Source: a virus. Taken from it: a stretch of DNA of 45,655 bases. Made by a program: the position numbers and the translations under genes. Each line of letters starts with the position of its first letter. The first letter of the stretch is position 1. Positions 13,933 through 30,757 of the stretch are shown piece after piece. The DNA lies in IMG/VR virus record IMGVR_UViG_3300009609_000031, positions 1 through 45,655 of that record. One strand, written 5' to 3'. Below the pieces are notes generated by a model. That model did not search any database, was not told the origin of the DNA, and was given only the letters and a program-made list of their open reading frames with translations.

Positions 13933-15050
13933 TGGGCAGCATGTTCCTCGACGGTGGGTCACTCGGGCGCTCTCTGAATCGGGGCGGTCACGGCGTGGGA
14001 AATATGTTCGGCGGGCGCGGAGAAATCTACAACCACGACTTCGATGGCTCGTACGGCGCTATCCCCACGTTCAGCAACGGCCCGCCTCCTGACGGGAACC
14101 GCTGCCTCACGTACACGTCGCGCAACGCGCAGCACTGGCGAATGCGCAAGTGCGTGTTGAATCGCAACGGCGTGCCTCCTGATACGTCGCCCTCTGGCAC
14201 GTCAGAGATGTGCAAGCTGGAGGGCACGGACAATTCGATCGTCGACTCCGTGATCCGCAACTCGGTGTCGCACGGTCACGCGATCGACTCTGGATCGTGG
14301 TCGTGGTTCGCGCGCGGTGGTCGCGTCGCGCACAGCGTCTATCAGAATTTCAACGGACCGATCGCAGTCATGCGCGATTGGCTCGACGACGGCGCCCCCG
14401 GCTCGGCCCGCTTGAACGATTACAAGTGGCTCAACTGCATCTTCGATCAGGTCGCGCTGAACCCGTACTCGAGTTGGATCGATCACCTGCTGGTGTCCTA
14501 CCTCTCGGCCGGCGTTGATTGGACGAACGTGATCCAGATGCACGGCATCACCGTGCGCGACTCCGCTGGCAGAGACGGCGATGACTTCGAGGTCACGATC
14601 TCCAGAGGTAACGGTCCTGGTACGCGATCGATCAACTACATGCTCGCGAACTACCCGGCGAACTTCTCCAACTGGACGTTCGTTACCGCGAATCCGTTCA
14701 CCGCTTCGCTGAGCGCTGCGACGAACATCAAGGGTCCGGACATCCCGACATGGTACACGCCGGGCACCACAGCGAACGGGGTGGCGTTGACGACGGTCGC
14801 GGCCGGCGACTCGGGCAGCGGCACGTCGCTGGTCGTCAACGATTCGCGATGCTTTCCTGATCCGCGTTATGTATCGAGCGATGGCTCGATCAAAGAGCTG
14901 CACTGCAACGGAGCCAATCGGCAGTTCACGGCGGTGAACTTCTCGACGCACACGTTCACGATGGCGACTGGCTTCTCGCGCAGCGCTGGTATGGCGGTGA
15001 ATCTGCCAATCACCAGCGGCTCGACGCCGAATCGTGGGGCGGTGCGCTAA
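13932..15050 (+). CDS. Tail spike part 2: right-handed beta-helix protein
   Basis: This 372-aa protein overlaps the preceding stop by 1 nt (TAATG) and lies in the -1 frame relative to it. Repeated 'NSIVDSVIRNSVSHGHAID' and 'YKWLNCIFDQVALNP' strands are typical of beta-helix turns seen in spikes and pectate-lyase-like proteins. The Gly-rich start ('LDGGSLGRSLNRGGHGVGNM') looks like the middle of a helix and not a fresh N-terminus. Either the spike is made from two coupled chains or an intact gene was split. A direct role in surface glycan recognition is inferred. Confidence 0.72.
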   Translation: MGSMFLDGGSLGRSLNRGGHGVGNMFGGRGEIYNHDFDGSYGAIPTFSNGPPPDGNRCLTYTSRNAQHWRMRKCVLNRNGVPPDTSPSGTSEMCKLEGTDNSIVDSVIRNSVSHGHAIDSGSWSWFARGGRVAHSVYQNFNGPIAVMRDWLDDGAPGSARLNDYKWLNCIFDQVALNPYSSWIDHLLVSYLSAGVDWTNVIQMHGITVRDSAGRDGDDFEVTISRGNGPGTRSINYMLANYPANFSNWTFVTANPFTASLSAATNIKGPDIPTWYTPGTTANGVALTTVAAGDSGSGTSLVVNDSRCFPDPRYVSSDGSIKELHCNGANRQFTAVNFSTHTFTMATGFSRSAGMAVNLPITSGSTPNRGAVR

Positions 15051-16447
15051 TGGCAATCGGAGACGCACTCGTATTCCCAGGTAACTCCAGCGATCGCGCG
15101 TATCTCAGCGCGATGGCGCAGACCTGGCGCACGAACAACGGCACGGCGTGGTTCTTCGGCGCGTTCGTTCGTCTCGACTCACTCGACCCTGGTGAGAACG
15201 GGTGGATCGCCGACTCGCGGCGCGCATCGAACAACGCGGTGTCCTCGGGGCTCCAGTATCGGGACTCCAACAATCGCTTCCGAGGGACATACAACGCCAG
15301 CCCGATCGGAGAGATCACGACGAGCCCGAGTGCAACGACGTGGTACTTCGTGACCATGAGCAACACGGGCGCGAGCCTCGCGAACGTGATCCGCTATCAC
15401 TCGCTGGCGGGCTCGCAGGTCGACACGGTCACGACGAGCAACACCAGCTCGACGACCGACGACGGCAACACTCAGGAGGTGACGCTCGGCGCGCGCTACA
15501 ACGGCACGAGCACGTCGGACGAGTGGCGCGGCCGGATGTGGTTGCCGATATTCGTCTGGACTGCCGTGCCGTCGCAGTCGGAGCAGGAAGAATTCGCGGC
15601 CGATCCTCTGAACAAGCTCGTCGAGTGGATCGCCACGTATGGTGCGGCGAACGTCGTCGCCCTGCTCGCTCGCGACGGGTCGGGGCACGTCGACCAGGGC
15701 TCGAACGGCGAGACGATCACGCTGACCGGCGGCGTCACGCTCGGCTCGGCCAACGGCCCGACCGTTCCCGACCTCGTGGGCAGTGGAGGCACCAACCCGG
15801 CGCTCACTTCGCTCGGCAAGAAGTCGCTGGCGTTCTACGATCTTGAGCTCGCGGTGCCGTATTCGGGCACGAACCTCGGCGAAGATCCGCTGATCGAGTT
15901 GACTTCTGACTCGCTCGGCTTAAGCAACCTCGTGGCGCAGACCGTTCGCACGAGCAGCGACACGGGCGGCACCTTCGATTGCGCGATCGGCAGCCTCACT
16001 CCTGGCGCCATGTACTTGAAGCTCACCAACGCAGAGGTCGGTCACGCGTCGGAGGGACTCTCGACCCTCGTCGGGGTGGAGGTGCGCGCGGACTCCGGTG
16101 CCGGCGTCGTCGTCGCGCGTCGCACGATCCCGACTCAGAACAACCTCATCAACGTCGCGATCCCGACGTTCGACGGTGCCGGCGAGTTCCACTGTCGCAA
16201 CGCGCAGGAGTCACTCACGTACAGCGTGGCGTCGGGAGATCTGCCGGACGGACTCTCGCTGAGTGGCTCGACGATCTCCGGCACGATCGACTCGGGAGCA
16301 GCCGCCGGCTCGCCGTATACCTCGAACATCAGAGCGACGGACTCCAACGGCGACTGGGTCGAGCAAGTGCTGTCGTGGATCGTCACGGTGGCGGTGGCGA
16401 CCGGCAAGGCCGTCGGTTCGTGGGGCCGGAGAGGGCGCCGCCCTTGA
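15050..16447 (+). CDS. Tail fibre-like protein with LamG-like and Ig-like domains
   Basis: This 465-aa protein starts at ATG 15050 (TAATG overlap). Residues 1-190 resemble a concanavalin A/LamG-like jelly roll ('TAWFFGAFVRLDS', 'TTWYFVTMSNTGAS', 'EWRGRMWLPIFVWTAVPS'). Residues 350-450 form a putative Ig domain ('GDLPDGLSLSGSTISGTIDS'), the same type as in the 12967 gene. The C-terminus is short and basic (GSWGRRGRRP). It is probably another adhesin or receptor-binding component of the tail tip. Its stop overlaps the next start (TTGA). Confidence 0.68.
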   Translation: MAIGDALVFPGNSSDRAYLSAMAQTWRTNNGTAWFFGAFVRLDSLDPGENGWIADSRRASNNAVSSGLQYRDSNNRFRGTYNASPIGEITTSPSATTWYFVTMSNTGASLANVIRYHSLAGSQVDTVTTSNTSSTTDDGNTQEVTLGARYNGTSTSDEWRGRMWLPIFVWTAVPSQSEQEEFAADPLNKLVEWIATYGAANVVALLARDGSGHVDQGSNGETITLTGGVTLGSANGPTVPDLVGSGGTNPALTSLGKKSLAFYDLELAVPYSGTNLGEDPLIELTSDSLGLSNLVAQTVRTSSDTGGTFDCAIGSLTPGAMYLKLTNAEVGHASEGLSTLVGVEVRADSGAGVVVARRTIPTQNNLINVAIPTFDGAGEFHCRNAQESLTYSVASGDLPDGLSLSGSTISGTIDSGAAAGSPYTSNIRATDSNGDWVEQVLSWIVTVAVATGKAVGSWGRRGRRP

Positions 16448-23459: not shown

Positions 23460-23773
23460 CTCAGCGCCTCGACGTTGGCGCGGATCACCTTGCGCCGGCG
23501 ATCGCTCGCATGGCTTTCGTACGACAGGAGGCCCCGCTCGACCAGGCCCCATGCGAGACGAGATGCGCTGCTGAATGGCATCTTGAGCGACCTGACGATA
23601 TCGCTGAGGCCGACCGGTTTGCCGTCCACATGCGCGATCGCAGCGGTGGAGAAGACGGCTGCTTCACCCAGCGAATCGAAACCGTTAGCGCGGAGCATTG
23701 TGATCGCCGCGTGGATCTGGTGAACGGCCGTGGCAATCACGGCCGGGTCAGGCTTCTGTCGGTTCGTCGGCAT
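23456..23773 (-). CDS. MarR-like winged-helix protein
   Basis: This 105-aa protein starts at ATG 23773 inside the end of the Gp37-like gene (26-nt overlap). It has a winged-helix pattern: 'LGEAAVFSTAAIAHVDGKPVGLSDIVRSLKMPFSSASRLAWGLVERGLLSYE', ending with a basic wing (DRRRKVIRANVEALR). This resembles MarR-family regulators. It is coupled to the HerA-like ATPase, so it may be its DNA-targeting partner or regulate the operon. No ligand-binding residues can be assigned. Confidence 0.68.
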   Translation of the reverse strand: MPTNRQKPDPAVIATAVHQIHAAITMLRANGFDSLGEAAVFSTAAIAHVDGKPVGLSDIVRSLKMPFSSASRLAWGLVERGLLSYESHASDRRRKVIRANVEALR

Positions 23774-24743
23774 CGTTGGGCACCTTTGGGAATTGGCGGA
23801 CACGTAGATCGTCGGGCCACTCGAGCGGATTGCCGCCCTTGCGATCGCGCGGGCGGAGCTCGCGATGCCTGGACGGATCATTGGGGTGGGTGTCGTAAGG
23901 GCGCGCGCCGATCTGCTTCACGAAGACCGGCACGTACGCGGCTGCGCATTGGTCGACGATTGCGCGGATCCAGGCGAGATCAAGGGATCGCGCGCGCTGC
24001 CCGGACTCGCCGCCAACAATGACCCAGTCGAGCGCGCTCCCGAGCCGTCTGGTGACCACGTCGCCGAAAGGATCCTCGCGACGGCCGCTGAGTGCGTTCA
24101 GATTCTCACACGCGTCGCTGAGCGCGTTGAAGTCGATCGGCCCGAGCAACGGCTCGCACGAAACAAAGCGCACGGCCGCCGGCGTATTGAGCAGTAGCGG
24201 GATCCTCTCGTCTGCTCGGTCCTGATCCTCCGCGCTAACGCCGAGCCATACGTTCGGCAGGTGGAAGCCGGGCAGCCCGTCGTCGACGTGCGTGACGTAT
24301 GCGCTGCCGAGGTTATGCGCGAGCCTCGCCACGATCGCGGCGATTCGGCCCATGGTGTCGGTGCTCGAGCAGTACTCGAGCATCCGCTCCGGGCGCTTCG
24401 TGAGTACCTGGAACACGTGCCAGCGGCAGACCGACATGATCGCGAACATCATGTCGATGAACTCGGTCGGCACATCAGCGTGGAAGGTGTCCGACTGCGA
24501 GTTGACGAACACGAGCCGCGGCGTGCGCCAGCCGAGCGGTAGCGTCATCAGTGCGTCGATCGTCCGGACTTCGCCGGTCCACACCATGCCGTTCGGGCCC
24601 GGACGCGTGAGCCTGCCGAACTGCGGCCAGCGGTGCGCCTGCGTCATCGCGTAGCAGTTGGTACAGCCGGGCGAGACCATCGAGCAGCCGCGCACGGGCG
24701 ACCACGTCGCGTCGGTCCACTGAATTTTCGACTCGCCGCCCAC
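23748..24743 (-). CDS. Phage Gp37/Gp68-family protein (DUF5131)
   Basis: This 331-aa protein starts at GTG 24743. It begins GGESKIQWTDATWSPVRGCS and carries the cysteine motif CSMVSPGCTNCYAM, the family signature and reminiscent of radical-SAM iron-sulfur binding. Other family features are 'VFVNSQSDTFHADVP', 'WHVFQVLTKRPERML', 'NVWLGVSAEDQ' and 'WVIVGGESGQRAR'. The family is common in temperate phages and integrative elements, but its reaction is not established. It lies 2 nt downstream of a small hypothetical gene in the leftward operon. Confidence 0.86.
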   Translation of the reverse strand: MGGESKIQWTDATWSPVRGCSMVSPGCTNCYAMTQAHRWPQFGRLTRPGPNGMVWTGEVRTIDALMTLPLGWRTPRLVFVNSQSDTFHADVPTEFIDMMFAIMSVCRWHVFQVLTKRPERMLEYCSSTDTMGRIAAIVARLAHNLGSAYVTHVDDGLPGFHLPNVWLGVSAEDQDRADERIPLLLNTPAAVRFVSCEPLLGPIDFNALSDACENLNALSGRREDPFGDVVTRRLGSALDWVIVGGESGQRARSLDLAWIRAIVDQCAAAYVPVFVKQIGARPYDTHPNDPSRHRELRPRDRKGGNPLEWPDDLRVRQFPKVPNDADEPTEA

Positions 24744-24745
24744 GC

Positions 24746-24997
24746 TTATCCGCGCGGTCGAGCGTGCTCGGCCTCGAGGAACTGGCCGATCGTCAGCGTC
24801 GACGTGTCGAGCTCGTCGAGAACCGACGCCCACTCGGTCGGCGTCCACGACTCGCCGGGCGGCTTTCGCTTGAGCACGACCCCGAACAGGGCCGCGGCGT
24901 AACGGCTGCTCTCGCCGGCGACAGTTCGCACCAGCCGCTGCGAGATCGTCGCGAGCAGAGCGCGGTTGTCGACAATGCGTGGTGCCGCGGCTCTCAT
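24746..24997 (-). CDS. Hypothetical 83-aa protein
   Basis: It starts at ATG 24997, overlapping the ParB-like stop (ATGA), and is followed 2 nt later by the Gp37-like gene. The sequence is helical with 'NRALLATISQRLVRTVAGESSRYAAALFG' and 'PTEWASVLDELD'. No signal, membrane segment or known motif was seen. Tight coupling supports a real gene. Confidence 0.6.
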   Translation of the reverse strand: MRAAAPRIVDNRALLATISQRLVRTVAGESSRYAAALFGVVLKRKPPGESWTPTEWASVLDELDTSTLTIGQFLEAEHARPRG

Positions 24998-26634
24998 CGC
25001 TTTCCCTTCTTCTTTTTCGCGTCCGCCTTCGGCTTCTTCTCTTCCTTCGGCGCGAGATCGCGGCGGATCTTCTTCGTGTCGACGCCGAGGTGCTTGGCGA
25101 GGCGTTCGAGGTGCTCGGCCTTGCCATAGTCCTGCGTCACGTCTTCGAGCACCGTTATGGCGAGCGCCAGCTGAGCGAGCTCCGCTTCGCTACGCTCTGC
25201 GAGCTGCGCGAGTATCCAGTTCTCTTGGTTGCCGTTCGGGGGCTTGTCCCAGCCCAAGACCTCACAGTCCTCGTCCTGTAGATAGATCTGCCCGAACGCG
25301 TGAAAGATCAGCGCCGTCGTGCCGTAGCGATCCAACTTCTTCGGTGCGGCCGCTACGACTGCACGGAAGATGGCGGCGCGCGCAGCGATCTCGCGCTTAC
25401 GATCCTGCTCGACTCGCTCGCGGTCGATCTCGCGCACCTCCTCGCGATCCTTGCCGACCTTGGCGGTGACGCCTTTGTCCTTCATGCGATCGCGGATGTC
25501 GTCGAGTTTGAACACCTTCTCGACGCGGCCGGTTTCTGGGTTCTGCAGCAGTACCTTCGGCGCGTCCTTGCCGGCGAGTTCCGCGTACGTGCGTTTCTTC
25601 GGATCGTCCAGACACTTGTCGCTCGGTCGGGCATACCCGTTGCGAAGCTGCTTGTGCGCACCGTCGCTGCCGTATGCGTACATGGTGTAACGAGAGTCGG
25701 GTAGGATCCGCTTCGCGGCATTGCCGCGGATGACTTCCGTGCCGTCGGCCTTCGCCTTGTCCAGCTCGCGTTTGACGTGCGCCGCTTTCTTCGCTTTGAA
25801 GCACGTCGGGTTCGTGCAGACGTCTGCACTCGTCACGTCGCCGAAGAGCTCGCGCGCATTGCCGCTACGCATCGGGCACGGGCCGCAGGCACCGGCGCTG
25901 GGGACCAGGGTTGCGTCGTCGCGCGGGAATGGCGCGGTCGAAAGCTTCAGCATGAATGTGTCATGGACGTACCGCTGGGCCTCGCGGTAGCTCATCCGGA
26001 GCCCGTCACCGTCCCAACGCTTCTCGGTGATTTGCTTGAGAGCCCGTTCCTGTTGATCGTCGCCCGGGATCCGGGCGATCAGCAGCGCCGTGGAGGGGTT
26101 CAGGTCGCCTTTGTAGAAGGCCTCGCGCGCCGCGGCGCAGAGGGCGAGCAGCTTGATACGTGCATACACGTAGCTGCGCGACTTGCCGAGTTTGCCCGGG
26201 AGCTCGTCGACGCTGTGCCCGTGCGTTTCAACGAGCTCGTGATAGCCCTCGGCCTCCTGCATCGGGTGGACGTCCTCGCGCTGCAGGTTCTCGATGAGCT
26301 GGACCTCGATGACCTCCTCGTCGGTGAGCTCAAGCACGACAGCCGGAATCGTCTCGCGCTTCGCGAGCTGCGATGCGAGGAAGCGCCGTTCGCCGGCGAC
26401 GATCTCGTAGTAGCCCGGGACGGTGACGCCGGCGGCCTTCTCGCCGTTCACCTTGCGAACGACTATCGGTTGCACGATGCCGCGTGCAGCGACGCTCTCG
26501 ACGAGCTCGTCGAGCTTGATCTTGTCGAAGTACTTCCGGCGCTGCGTTTGCGCTTCAGTCGTCGATGGACGTAGCTGCTCGAGCGGAAGAGAGCGAAACT
26601 CAACATCAACAGTGACGCGGGATTCGGTGTCCAT
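24994..26634 (-). CDS. ParB/RepB/Spo0J-family protein
   Basis: This 546-aa protein has an N-terminal ParB domain: 'QPIVVRKVNGEKAAGVTVPGYYEIVAGERRFLASQLA', with the GERR motif that binds CTP in ParB proteins, and 'EVIEVQLIENLQREDVHPMQEAEGYHELVE'. An HTH follows (GKLGKSRSYVYARIKLLAL). Around residues 255-290 there is a cysteine cluster ('CGPCPMRSGN', 'CTNPTCFKAKK'), probably a zinc site. The C-terminus is Lys-rich. It is much longer than a partition ParB and has no ParA partner here, so plasmid-type partition is unlikely. It starts 18 nt after the DGR target 1 stop. Confidence 0.82.
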   Translation of the reverse strand: MDTESRVTVDVEFRSLPLEQLRPSTTEAQTQRRKYFDKIKLDELVESVAARGIVQPIVVRKVNGEKAAGVTVPGYYEIVAGERRFLASQLAKRETIPAVVLELTDEEVIEVQLIENLQREDVHPMQEAEGYHELVETHGHSVDELPGKLGKSRSYVYARIKLLALCAAAREAFYKGDLNPSTALLIARIPGDDQQERALKQITEKRWDGDGLRMSYREAQRYVHDTFMLKLSTAPFPRDDATLVPSAGACGPCPMRSGNARELFGDVTSADVCTNPTCFKAKKAAHVKRELDKAKADGTEVIRGNAAKRILPDSRYTMYAYGSDGAHKQLRNGYARPSDKCLDDPKKRTYAELAGKDAPKVLLQNPETGRVEKVFKLDDIRDRMKDKGVTAKVGKDREEVREIDRERVEQDRKREIAARAAIFRAVVAAAPKKLDRYGTTALIFHAFGQIYLQDEDCEVLGWDKPPNGNQENWILAQLAERSEAELAQLALAITVLEDVTQDYGKAEHLERLAKHLGVDTKKIRRDLAPKEEKKPKADAKKKKGKR

Positions 26635-26652
26635 CAGTCTCTCCCCAATGGC

Positions 26653-27093
26653 CTATGACTGACGGGCGCGCACGGCGCGGACGAACCCGCCGTAGTAGCG
26701 GTAGCTCCAGCCCGCGCTGCCGTTGCAGAAGTAGACGTGCCACGCGCAATCGCCGGGCGAGGGCGCGTACGTCGTCGATGTCCAGAACCAATCGCTCGGG
26801 CAGTCTGGGAAGAACGTCACGTCGATCGCCGGCCGCTCCGTGCGCGTACGATCAGCGAGCAAGAACAGCTCCTCGACCGTCGGGATCCTCCATCCGCTCT
26901 TGCCCGCGACCTTCGATGCCTTGAGTTCCTTCGCGACTCTTTTCTCGGTTGCGGACTTCCAATCGTCGACGATCACCGGCTCGGCGGCCCACATGAGCTT
27001 CGTCTGCGTATCGAGCACCGCGACCCAGGCCTTCGCGGACGGCGTGAGTTGCTTGCCGTTCTCGCCGATCTTGATGAACCGAGCTGTCGTCAT
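26653..27093 (-). CDS. DGR target protein 1 (DUF1566/Lcl-type), contains VR1
   Basis: This 146-aa protein starts at ATG 27093, with GGGGGAGG just upstream and overlap with the preceding stop. Residues 65-146 have the DUF1566/Lcl C-terminal pattern ('GWRIPTVEELFLLAD', 'WFWTSTTYAPSPGDCAWHVYF', 'GGFVRAVRA'), a C-type-lectin-like fold used by many DGR target proteins. The last 35 codons before RAxQS come from VR1. There is no signal peptide or membrane segment, so it appears cytoplasmic or carried by another structure. It is a paralogue of the 29080 gene. Diversified residues are mainly the AAC-derived Tyr, Ser, His, Cys and Gly positions. Confidence 0.9.
   Translation of the reverse strand: MTTARFIKIGENGKQLTPSAKAWVAVLDTQTKLMWAAEPVIVDDWKSATEKRVAKELKASKVAGKSGWRIPTVEELFLLADRTRTERPAIDVTFFPDCPSDWFWTSTTYAPSPGDCAWHVYFCNGSAGWSYRYYGGFVRAVRARQS
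26662..26766 (-). repeat. DGR variable repeat 1 (VR1)
   Basis: Aligned to the TR (28469-28573), 13 of 105 positions differ. All 13 correspond to adenines in the coding-strand TR, and all 82 non-adenine positions are identical. In TR coordinates the changed positions are 28471, 28498, 28501, 28504, 28510, 28512, 28518, 28519, 28524, 28533, 28534, 28540 and 28546. Just beyond it (26650-26661) a 12-nt sequence shared with VR2 but not with the TR is the likely IMH (initiation of mutagenic homing). Confidence 0.95.
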
Positions 27094-27284
27094 GGGGCCT
27101 CCCCCGATTTCGTTGGTTGGTAAAGACACGACACGGCGTGCGATGCGCCGTTGTCCGGATCCGTTACGCGGCATGGATAGAGCTGCTCAAGCACGTTGGC
27201 GGCGAGCGCAATCGCATACATGACGAATGCGACGAACAGGCCGCCGGCGACGAGCCTAAGTGCCGAGAGGGCGCGCTCTCTCAT
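27090..27284 (-). CDS. Small membrane protein between RT and target 1
   Basis: This 64-aa protein starts at ATG 27284, overlapping the RT stop (ATGA), and its stop overlaps the target 1 start. Residues 8-33 form one membrane helix ('LVAGGLFVAFVMYAIALAANVLE'), followed by 'YPCRVTDP' and 'HAVSCLYQ', with two cysteines that could pair outside the membrane. It is not a usual DGR component. Its placement inside the cassette makes an accessory role possible, for example anchoring a target protein, but nothing shows this directly. Confidence 0.65.
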   Translation of the reverse strand: MRERALSALRLVAGGLFVAFVMYAIALAANVLEQLYPCRVTDPDNGASHAVSCLYQPTKSGEAP

Positions 27285-28630
27285 GCGGTGTGCTCCAGAA
27301 GCGGAAGAGACAACCGCCGGCCCTCACAGCGGTAGTCGATCGAGCGCGGCCGTAGTGCGGTGCCGAGCCACGGGAATTCGTCGTGTAAACGCTGCTCGAG
27401 CCGGCGGCTAGCGGCGTGGCGGAAGTGTCCGACGTAGCTCATCCAGACGGACTTCAGCTCGCGCAGCTGCCGCGGCGTAGCCCGAATCCCGCGGCGGCTC
27501 ACACAGCCGCGCTGCCACGCGGCGAGCTTTTCGCGTGCGTGCGTTACGACGCGCCGGCGCACGAGCCGATGCGTCGGTCGAATGATGTAGCCGAGGAAAT
27601 CGACGCCGGCGTCGAGCCGCTGCAGCTTGACCTCGGGCTTGAGCCGCAGCTGCAGGCGCTCCTCGAGGAAGCGCGCGATCTCCACCTGCCAGGCCACGAG
27701 TTGCCCGCGGGCGCGATGCACGAGCACGAAGTCGTCGACGTACCGGACATAGCGACGCGCCCGCAGCGCGTGCTTCACAAACTGATCGAGCTCGTTCAGA
27801 TAGACGTTTGCGAAGAACTGCGAGGAGAGGTTGCCGATAGAGATCCCGCAGTCTTGCGCGGCTTCGGCGAGCCGCTTGTGCGGCGGGACCGCGGCGAGCT
27901 CGGCCGGTGTGCCGATGTAGCGGACACCGTCGGCGATCGGTGAGCGCTCGAGCAGCGCTCGTACGGTGGCGCGCTCGACCAACGGAGCTGCCGTCCGAGC
28001 AAGGCGCGTGTCCAGTAGCCGGAGTAGCGTCGGCCGATGAATCGAGTTGAAGAAGTTGTGGACGTCGAGCTGCAGAAACCAGCCGCCGCCCTCGCCGGAT
28101 TCGACTTCGCAGCTGAAGCGCTGCAGTCGTTCGACGGCCGCGTGCGTGCCCCTGCCGCGGCGATTGCTGTAGGCGTCGTGAATGAAGATCGGCTCGTACA
28201 CACGCTCGCTCCGCGGCACGAGCCAGTGGTGAACAACGCGATCGCGGAACTCGGGCGCGTGTATCTCGCGCGCTTTTGGGAGTTGCGCGACGAAGCATGT
28301 CGGCGGCCCGGGCCGCCATGTGCCGGCGTTGAGCTCGGTCTGTAGCTCGAGCAAGTGGTCGAGCCAGTAGGCCTCGAACGCGAGCTGGCTCGCGCTCGGT
28401 TTCTTGCCACGGCGCGCCTCGCGCCAGGCAGCGTGGAGCTCGCGGAAGGAGACGGTGTCCGGACACTCACTGGCGCGCACGGCGCGGACGAACCCGCTGT
28501 TGTTGCGGTTGTTCCAGTTCGCGTTGCCGTTGTTGAAGTTGACGTTCCACGCGCAATCGCCGGGCGAGGGCGCTAACCCGCTCGCTTGCGACCCGGCCGT
28601 CCATCCGTCGCGGTAGGGCGGCTTCGTCAT
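27281..28630 (-). CDS. DGR reverse transcriptase with TR translated at its N-terminus
   Basis: ATG 28630 is chosen because it overlaps the avd stop (ATGA at 28627-28630), giving 449 aa. Residues 20-54 are the TR read in frame (an Asn-rich stretch from AAC codons). The RT proper follows: 'RPGPPTCFV', 'FRDRVVHHWLVP', motif A 'LQLDVHNFFNSI' (Asp189), the DGR-type motif 'ISIGNLSSQFFANVYLNELD' (GNLSSQ, 266-271), and the catalytic YVDD (297-300). It would copy the TR RNA with adenine-specific errors and drive replacement of VR. A GTG at 28480, at the end of the TR, is an alternative start giving 399 aa. Confidence 0.93.
   Translation of the reverse strand: MTKPPYRDGWTAGSQASGLAPSPGDCAWNVNFNNGNANWNNRNNSGFVRAVRASECPDTVSFRELHAAWREARRGKKPSASQLAFEAYWLDHLLELQTELNAGTWRPGPPTCFVAQLPKAREIHAPEFRDRVVHHWLVPRSERVYEPIFIHDAYSNRRGRGTHAAVERLQRFSCEVESGEGGGWFLQLDVHNFFNSIHRPTLLRLLDTRLARTAAPLVERATVRALLERSPIADGVRYIGTPAELAAVPPHKRLAEAAQDCGISIGNLSSQFFANVYLNELDQFVKHALRARRYVRYVDDFVLVHRARGQLVAWQVEIARFLEERLQLRLKPEVKLQRLDAGVDFLGYIIRPTHRLVRRRVVTHAREKLAAWQRGCVSRRGIRATPRQLRELKSVWMSYVGHFRHAASRRLEQRLHDEFPWLGTALRPRSIDYRCEGRRLSLPLLEHTA
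28469..28573 (-). repeat. DGR template repeat (TR)
   Basis: This 105-nt unit is matched by VR1 and VR2, and contains 23 adenines on the coding strand, most in AAC codons (Asn), the typical hypervariable design. Across the two VRs, 19 of 23 adenine positions are changed and none of the 82 other positions is. The 3' flank (28457-28468) differs from the 12 nt shared by VR1 and VR2, as expected for IMH* versus IMH. It lies inside the RT frame. Confidence 0.95.
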
Positions 28631-29061
28631 ACGTGAGCCTCGTGTGAGGCGGAGCGGGCACTCAGTATCTCGGCACGCCCGGCTTGGGCTGATCCCATCC
28701 GGTTCTGGCCGCTCGGACGCCGTAGCTGCTTCTGCCAGCCTCCACACTGCCGACCGAGGTCGGAAACGATCCGGACAAGAGCTTCGAACTGCGCGAAGCT
28801 CTTGAACGCTCGCACGTCCTTGGCGAGTTGGATCGTGAACTTGAGATCGTCGACGGCGAAGACTAGACGGCCCACCCAATCAGCGCGCGCGCCCTGGTCA
28901 CGCCACGCGCGATGTGCGCAGCGCGTGACAGTGCGTGCGATCGCACGGAGCTCGCCGCCGACCGCGTACTTGTGGTAGCGCGGGAAGCTGCGAACGATCT
29001 CCTCGAGCTCGCGGAGAACGCGACCCGCGAGTTGAACGATCGGTGGTGCCGATTGCGTCAT
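28627..29061 (-). CDS. avd: Avd, accessory variability determinant
   Basis: This 144-aa protein lies between target 2 and the RT, overlapping the RT start. It is all-helical and basic ('LAGRVLRELEEIVRSFPRYHKYAVGGELRAIARTVTRCAHRAWRD', 'WVGRLVFAVDDLKFTIQLAKDVRAFKSFAQFEALVRIVSDLGRQ'), matching the bAvd/S23-like four-helix bundle that forms a pentameric barrel and binds the RT and the TR RNA. The size is close to the usual 120-130 aa. The C-terminal 25 residues (after RRPSGQNR) look variable. Assignment is by motif and position together. Confidence 0.9.
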   Translation of the reverse strand: MTQSAPPIVQLAGRVLRELEEIVRSFPRYHKYAVGGELRAIARTVTRCAHRAWRDQGARADWVGRLVFAVDDLKFTIQLAKDVRAFKSFAQFEALVRIVSDLGRQCGGWQKQLRRPSGQNRMGSAQAGRAEILSARSASHEAHV

Positions 29062-29079
29062 CGCCCTAACCCGATGGGC

Positions 29080-29502
29080 CTATGACTGACTGGCGCGCAC
29101 GGCGCGGACGAACCCGCCGTTGAGGCGGTAGTCCCAGTTCGCGTCGCCGCTGTAGAAGTAGACGACCCACGCGCAAACGCCGGGCGAGGGCGCCGCCGGC
29201 GTCGACGTCCAATACCAATCGTCGGTCGGGCATTCGGTGAAGAACGCTGTGTCGATCGCCGGGTTGTAGCGCGTGTCGTCGACGAGCGTGAGGAGTTCCT
29301 TGCGCGTCGGCAGGCGACCGAGCAGACCGGCGATGGTCGTGCTCTTTGCGATCTCGTCGGCGTGCTGCCAACTCTTCGCCTTCGCAGCAGCCAAAGACCA
29401 GATGAGCTTGGTGTCGTTGTCGAGCACGGCCACCCATTCGGCGGCCTCGGCAGGGAGCTGAGCGCCGGCGGCGCCGATCTTCACGAAACGCGATGAGGTC
29501 AT
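29080..29502 (-). CDS. DGR target protein 2 (DUF1566/Lcl-type), contains VR2
   Basis: This 140-aa protein is first in the leftward operon, starting at ATG 29502 with GGAG upstream. It is a paralogue of target 1 along its whole length ('SSRFVKIGAAGAQLPAEAAEWVAVLDNDTKLIWS', 'LLGRLPTRKELLTLVDD', 'DWYWTSTPAAPSPGVCAWVVYFY', 'GGFVRAVRASQS'). The C-terminal part is the lectin-like fold displaying the variable residues. No signal peptide is seen from this start. Its promoter is the operator-covered PL-like promoter at 29551-29579. It ends 18 nt before avd. Confidence 0.9.
   Translation of the reverse strand: MTSSRFVKIGAAGAQLPAEAAEWVAVLDNDTKLIWSLAAAKAKSWQHADEIAKSTTIAGLLGRLPTRKELLTLVDDTRYNPAIDTAFFTECPTDDWYWTSTPAAPSPGVCAWVVYFYSGDANWDYRLNGGFVRAVRASQS
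29089..29193 (-). repeat. DGR variable repeat 2 (VR2)
   Basis: Aligned to the TR, 12 of 105 positions differ, all at coding-strand adenines of the TR (in TR coordinates 28498, 28503, 28504, 28510, 28513, 28525, 28530, 28534, 28540, 28545, 28546, 28557). The changes are not the same as those in VR1. The 12 nt immediately beyond (29077-29088) are identical to VR1's flank and differ from the TR's, so they are the likely IMH. Confidence 0.95.
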
Positions 29503-29528
29503 CGGTAGGTCTCCAGTGGATCCCAGGG

Positions 29529-29594
29529 GATAGGAATGGGCTGGAGTGTGAATATAGGAAAAGCCTATAAACAGGTCAATAGGCAAAACCTATA
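29529..29594 (-). promoter_or_regulatory. PL-like promoter with operators (OL)
   Basis: Reading leftward, TTGACC (29574-29579) and TATATT (29551-29556) are 17 nt apart, a near-consensus sigma-70 promoter for the DGR/int operon. Two palindromes overlie it: TATAGG-AAAAG-CCTATA at 29553-29569 (covering the -10 and spacer) and AATAGG-CAAAA-CCTATA at 29578-29594 (at the -35). A weaker site, GATAGG-AATGG-GCTGGA, lies at 29529-29545. Centres are 24-25 bp apart. The same site type occurs at the repressor/cro promoter, so both promoters should answer to the same repressor. Confidence 0.82.
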
Positions 29595-29638
29595 TTCTGG
29601 AGCCGGATGACCCCAGTGGCACGTTCTCGGGAAGGAAA

Positions 29639-30512: not shown

Positions 30513-30555
30513 CATAGGTCTCGCCTGTTGACTCTGTATAGGAATGACCTATATT
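30513..30555 (+). promoter_or_regulatory. PR-like promoter and right operators (OR)
   Basis: TTGACT (30528-30533) and TATATT (30550-30555), 16 nt apart, form a strong rightward promoter. The palindrome TATAGG-AATGA-CCTATA (30537-30553) sits between and on the -10. A weaker copy, CATAGG-TCTCG-CCTGTT, lies at 30513-30529, 24 bp away centre to centre. The predicted transcript starts at about 30561-30563, so the GTG of the Cro-like gene at 30563 would be leaderless or nearly so. Confidence 0.8.
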
Positions 30556-30562
30556 TAGGTCC

Positions 30563-30757
30563 GTGGAAGCACTACGCGAGTTCATGACCGAGCGCGGCCT
30601 GACGCAGGCCGATCTCGCCAAAATGTTCAAAGTTTCACAGGCCACGGTCAGCGACTACCTCGCCGGTCGCATCACGCCTCGCAAGAAGCGCTTGCTGATG
30701 ATCAGCGAAAAGACCGGGCTTTCTGTCGACACGCTGCTGAAGGGACCTGCGCACTGA
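30563..30757 (+). CDS. Cro-like regulator
   Basis: This 64-aa protein starts at GTG 30563 directly downstream of the PR-like -10. It is a single HTH_3-type domain ('LREFMTERGLTQADLAKMFKVSQATVSDYLAGRITPRKKRLLMISEKTGL'). Size, orientation opposite to the repressor and location over the shared operators make it the Cro-type early switch protein. No Shine-Dalgarno precedes it, consistent with leaderless translation. Confidence 0.84.
   Translation: MEALREFMTERGLTQADLAKMFKVSQATVSDYLAGRITPRKKRLLMISEKTGLSVDTLLKGPAH

Follow-up and report, generated by a model that had tools for sequence, protein, structure and literature searches.

We describe a diversity-generating retroelement (DGR) in the IMG/VR virus record IMGVR_UViG_3300009609_000031, analysed over its whole length of 45,655 bases (positions 1 to 45,655; hereafter the window). 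The record encodes an integrase, a ParB-like protein, a portal, a tape measure and a large terminase according to profile matches, and the cassette is a genuine DGR of a temperate phage. Its template repeat (TR) lies in frame inside the reverse transcriptase (RT) gene. Upstream of the TR there is an RNA element with an arm that covaries with the 3' boundary of the TR and is also complementary to the boundary of the variable repeats (VRs). From these observations we consider it probable that the RNA of this DGR carries its priming domain on the 5' side of the template, where avd and the RT gene over-print it. To our knowledge, the start of copying by DGR RNAs is known in detail for one system only, that of BPP-1, in which the RNA domain lies 3' of the template.

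The cassette and its adenine-specific repeats

The genes stand on the minus strand in the order target 2, avd, RT, target 1. The comparison set consisted of 160 related loci, 41 of which are distinct loci with an in-frame TR ("the clade" below). The features of the cassette, in window coordinates, are:

28469-28573, minus strand: TR, in frame within the RT open reading frame (ORF) and in the same frame as the VRs
26662-26766, minus strand: VR1, with 13 differences from the TR, every one at a TR adenine
29089-29193, minus strand: VR2, with 12 differences from the TR, every one at a TR adenine
27281-28630, minus strand: RT gene, 449 aa; residues 1-57 are a leader predicted to be disordered, which would include the translated TR, and the remainder has the DGR RT fold
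28627-29061, minus strand: avd, 144 aa (PHROG 3206, 6e-17); its last ~16 codons are constrained at the nucleotide level
28627-28630, minus strand: ATGA overlap of the avd stop and the RT start, exact in 39 of the 41 clade loci
28662-28669, minus strand (reads 28669-28662): 5' arm GATACTGA at the avd 3' end; base-pairs with the TR 3' boundary and is complementary to that of the VRs
28462-28471, minus strand: TR 3' boundary AGTGAGTGTC (IMH*, the counterpart of the initiation of mutagenic homing element, IMH, at the VRs); 3' arm of the covarying stem, overlapping the last 3 nt of the TR
28638-28651, minus strand: hairpin GCCTC(ACAC)GAGGC, which contains the Shine-Dalgarno-like GAGG of the RT gene
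26653-27093, minus strand: target gene 1, 146 aa, Lcl_C/DUF1566 (Pfam PF07603, 1.5e-24), with VR1 at its C-terminal end
29080-29502, minus strand: target gene 2, 140 aa, Lcl_C/DUF1566 (Pfam PF07603, 2.4e-22), with VR2 at its C-terminal end

The TR aligns with VR1 and VR2 without gaps across 105 nt. The repeat coordinates given by the first-pass annotation of this DNA, and its counts of differences, all placed on TR adenines, were reproduced base for base by our gap-free realignment. A recount also returned its figures of 23 TR adenines, 19 of them changed in at least one VR, and 82 other positions left untouched; six adenines are changed in both VRs. The probability that the differences would be confined to adenines by chance is 8e-11 for VR1 and 7e-10 for VR2. 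The 12-nt flank described as common to the VRs and absent from the TR is indeed there, since both VRs carry CAGTCATAGGCC where the TR has GAGTGTCCGG (IMH versus IMH*). A scan of the 12 kb around the repeats, covering every offset and both strands, did not find any further TR/VR pair.

The GNLSSQ and YVDD motifs attributed to the RT were both found in its translation, and profile searches placed the protein in the DGR lineage (PHROG 1423, 2e-94). Its best sequence match in PDB is the Bordetella DGR RT 8ub7 (2e-35), part of a DGR ribonucleoprotein, which is likewise its best fold match (TM score 0.86 over the target). A retron or a group II intron was ruled out, as the RT models of both score far under their cut-offs and no Rfam RNA matched; the Rfam search, run on positions 26500-29600, gave no significant match of any kind. 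Avd matches NCBIfam DivGenRetAVD under the cut-off (1.9e-9), as it does Pfam bAvd. The two ~140-aa targets belong by profile to Lcl_C/DUF1566, a known kind of DGR target (PMC6642488), and are predicted to be C-type-lectin-like by family only. A search for the avd and target proteins among named phages found nothing. The adenine-only changes, together with the RT, Avd and target matches, support the earlier proposal of a DGR with two target genes.

The VRs of close relatives differ at adenine sites and hardly elsewhere. Between the orthologous VRs of loci L029 and L037 there are differences at 19 of 26 adenine sites versus 0 of 67 other sites, and between VR1 of the window and its orthologue in L004 at 15 of 23 versus 4 of 82. 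Recent activity of the DGR in its clade is therefore supported, if indirectly. It is very improbable that the cassette is a decayed, inactive relic: RT, avd, TR and both targets are intact, and divergence as specific to adenine sites as that between VR1 and L004 argues against decay.

A template repeat inside the RT gene

The RT ORF begins at the ATG at 28630, in a 4-nt overlap with the avd stop codon. From this ATG the frame is open through the whole TR, in the frame of the VRs, and on into the RT domain, the TR thus forming the N-terminus of the RT. The conserved RT domain begins about 10 nt after the end of the TR in the window, and about 10-36 nt after it in the clade. The clade is monophyletic, with a single origin (SH-aLRT 100), and its named hosts are mostly Lysobacterales (Dokdonella, Lysobacter, Arenimonas, Rhodanobacter and Rudaea). 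In every clade locus where a TR was found, it lies wholly within the open frame. The codons at the boundary differ between repeats: in VRs a stop codon usually comes after CAG, whereas clade TRs have GAG-TNT, keeping the RT frame open.

These data could be read as an annotation accident, with the RT starting at a GTG in the tail of the TR and the ATGA being either a chance occurrence or a relic of coupling. The window does have an in-frame GTG near the TR end, the RT leader is predicted to be disordered, and the TR peptide is unconserved, with an altered frame in four loci. However, 11 clade loci lack any in-frame ATG, GTG or TTG from the TR end to the RT domain, so that translation has to start within or before the TR; in these loci the conserved candidate for the RT start is the ATGA. 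The distance from this ATG to the RT domain takes 17 different lengths across the clade, each a multiple of three, and a Shine-Dalgarno-like motif (GAGG or GGGG) stands ahead of the ATG in nearly all loci. Moreover, clade TRs have lost a stop, TGA at the boundary site, which most TRs of the sister group still retain. We thus judge an annotation accident to be distinctly unlikely, and infer that the RT is translated through the TR.

In the four loci where the TR is read in a different frame (L008, L009, L027 and L088) the ORF is still open, and therefore it is the open path that is kept, not the peptide. The peptide preceding the TR is under weak selection as protein (ratio of nonsynonymous to synonymous polymorphism, pN/pS, 0.65), and for this reason we ascribe its conservation mainly to the RNA.

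TRs have been described as mostly intergenic (PMC8144416). TRs overlapping the RT ORF were classed as "group 3" in 2012, and the arrangement was inferred to be irrelevant to the mechanism (PMC3521204). Our cassette shares the overlap with that class; the reading frame, the coupling of avd to RT and the RNA element are not reported in the section of that paper examined. In a literature search of limited coverage we found no account of an in-frame, avd-coupled TR, of the 5' arm or of its dual complementarity, so their novelty is provisional.

The RNA element 5' of the template

Differences at fourfold sites run at ~0.6 in the body of avd, compared with 0.26-0.27 in its last 16 codons (from codon 129) and 0.32-0.35 in the first 30 RT codons. 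Past the TR, after RT codon 60, they return to 0.55-0.65, and we found no synonymous constraint in RT codons 61-110. The low values therefore locate constraint at the nucleotide level 5' of the TR, and not 3' of it. Consensus folding pointed to pairing of the avd end with the 3' boundary of the TR, where the clade consensus is G[AG]NACT(GA) for the arm and AGTN[TC]C for the boundary. Pairing is complete in all 37 distinct sequence pairs (100% of 222 cells), with 17 two-sided changes; when the partner was slid along as a control, at most 50% paired. In the window the two segments form a 6-bp stem with one mismatch beyond it. Between the arm and the ATG, the Shine-Dalgarno hairpin has a stem of at least 5 bp in 72% of the clade versus 29% of shuffles. 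A second hairpin in the first RT codons (CCC-N3-GGG) did no better than shuffles and was dropped.

The element extends beyond the clade, to 13 sister DGRs (L094-L096, L099-L107 and L109) from Desulfobacterota, Nitrospirota and other proteobacteria. There a homologous arm, NNNACTGTGC, is paired with the boundary in 100% of variable cells versus 78% with shuffled partners. The sister DGRs share with the clade the 5' element, the covarying stem between arm and boundary, and a TR that abuts the RT domain. They differ in that the element is mostly intergenic, between avd and TR, in that most keep the TR stop in the VR frame, and in having no ATGA-coupled RT start in frame through the TR.

The arm distinguishes the two kinds of repeat. 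At the boundary, 41 of 41 clade TRs have TGAGT and 82 of 87 VRs have TCAGT; as the arm contains ACTGA, it is perfect with the VR over five bases and mismatched to the TR at the distinguishing base. The corresponding arm and VR sequences are ACTGT and ACAGT in the sister group, and ACTGG and CCAGT in a third group. The variable base of the arm tracks the TR strictly, and the VR in part. We set aside the length of the arm-VR match as evidence, and give the match weight because of its fixed position, its conservation and a parallel in BPP-1.

The BPP-1 cassette (avd-TR-Sp-brt; NC_005357) resembles that of the window in its adenine-specific TR/VR pair, its upstream avd, the DGR fold of its RT and the C-terminal position of the VR in its target. 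It has a 144-nt intergenic spacer (Sp) 3' of the TR, followed by brt, whereas in the window the RT ORF encloses the TR and no Sp lies 3' of it. Nine nucleotides of the Sp, AGGTGGTCA, are complementary to the VR boundary TGACCACCT and mismatched to the TR (TGCCCATCA; P=0.0035 by shuffling), and no comparable complement of the VR boundary was found 5' of the BPP-1 TR. The last base of the segment is Sp nucleotide 56, which we take to be the priming adenosine. BPP-1 and the window thus have in common an RNA segment that complements the VR boundary and has a mismatch with that of the TR; it is located in the Sp, 3' of the TR, in the former and in avd, 5' of the TR, in the latter. The same design appears to lie on opposite sides of the template in BPP-1 and in the lineage of the window.

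Other DGR loci also have long complements of the VR boundary, upstream of the TR in L070 (11 nt) and L161 (9 nt), and downstream of it, at a BPP-1-like distance, in L157 (9 nt). Across DGR lineages, the side on which the complementary element lies may be variable.

BPP-1 and the window differ as well in what follows the VR: BPP-1 has the canonical hairpin, with 8 bp and a GAAA loop, and the window has no hairpin of at least 7 bp after either VR. In the clade, none of 87 VRs is followed by a canonical hairpin (GC-rich, 7-10 bp, with a 4-nt GRNA loop), while the BPP-1 positive control was detected. A short CC-N3-5-GG repeat after the VRs was rejected as its replacement, being present in 17 of 87 only.

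A proposed mechanism can be outlined from these sequence comparisons. A single transcript (target 2, avd, TR-RT, target 1) probably serves as both mRNA and template. Avd and RT would bind an RNA domain made of the avd 3' end, the first RT codons and the TR. In this domain the arm, just upstream of the RT start, would pair with the TR 3' boundary and mark or prime the start of the cDNA; RT-Avd would begin synthesis at this pairing and miscopy adenines. Since the arm, or the adjoining start of the cDNA, is fully complementary to the VR boundary, the two targets may then be favoured over the TR. The RT would be translated from the ATGA through the TR and carry a disordered, probably dispensable, template peptide. 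Because the RT start codon lies within the fold, RT translation would be expected to compete with folding, and the transcript may act as a switch between mRNA and template.

A different arrangement would be an RNA of the BPP-1 type, with the primer spacer 3' of the TR within the RT coding sequence, and a 5' element that stops the cDNA or controls RT translation. It has a precedent, as in BPP-1 an internal adenine of the Sp primes cDNA at the TR 3' junction, while reverse transcription is terminated by a motif in the avd 3' end (PMC12875486). Yet the TR and the conserved RT domain are mere tens of nucleotides apart or less (~10-36 nt), the codons that follow (61-110) lack synonymous constraint, and the clade has no above-chance complement of the VR boundary downstream of the TR. 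We regard this alternative as unlikely, though less so than an annotation accident.

Several observations weigh against a 5' priming domain over-printed by the two genes. The stem pairs are invariant in four of six positions. The arm-VR match is just 5-6 nt long, its length (5.4) being only slightly above that of shuffles (4.7-4.9), and the arms of the sister group have no A to match the priming adenosine of BPP-1. Locus L031 has TGATG in place of ATGA, and in L034 the frame is broken between ATGA and TR, through sequencing error or decay. Finally, the case for RT translation through the TR comes from sequence. With these points counted, we still favour the 5' priming domain. Whether it characterizes a major DGR lineage with a permuted template RNA, in which a 5' priming and guide domain bears a target-complementary arm and, in one clade whose phages mostly have Lysobacterales as hosts as far as these are known, has been over-printed by the end of avd and the start of the RT gene, is to us an evenly balanced question.

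Phage context and significance

Upstream of the DGR operon, at its promoter, lies one further feature:

29554-29594, no strand assigned: two operator-like palindromes, ATAGGN5CCTATA

A third copy is found at 30538-30553, between a gene of the Cro/CI helix-turn-helix (HTH) type (30563-30757, plus strand; HTH_3, 1.2e-12) and a divergent ORF. The motif thus occurs in three places in the window, where 0.06 matches are expected. This suggests control of the DGR by a phage repressor; since the promoter palindromes are shared with the repressor region, DGR expression might be tied to the lytic switch.

Target gene 1 is followed immediately by a co-oriented gene for a large ParB-like protein of 546 aa (24994-26634, minus strand), next to which lies one for a DUF5131 protein (PF07505, 1.5e-76; 23748-25127, minus strand). 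A putative Ig-domain protein (He_PIG, 1.4e-8) is encoded at 15050-16447, plus strand, in the structural-gene half of the phage.

The in-frame TR contradicts the common assumption that TRs are intergenic, and, for design, the arrangement points to a compact cassette with template and RT combined in a single gene. If our reading is correct, one RNA region would be at once structural RNA, cDNA template and mRNA, and every RT molecule could arise only from translation through its own template. If this lineage starts copying from the 5' side, the DGR mechanism would be more plastic than the BPP-1 model, and a segment matched to the VR and mismatched to the TR may be a general rule for telling targets from template.

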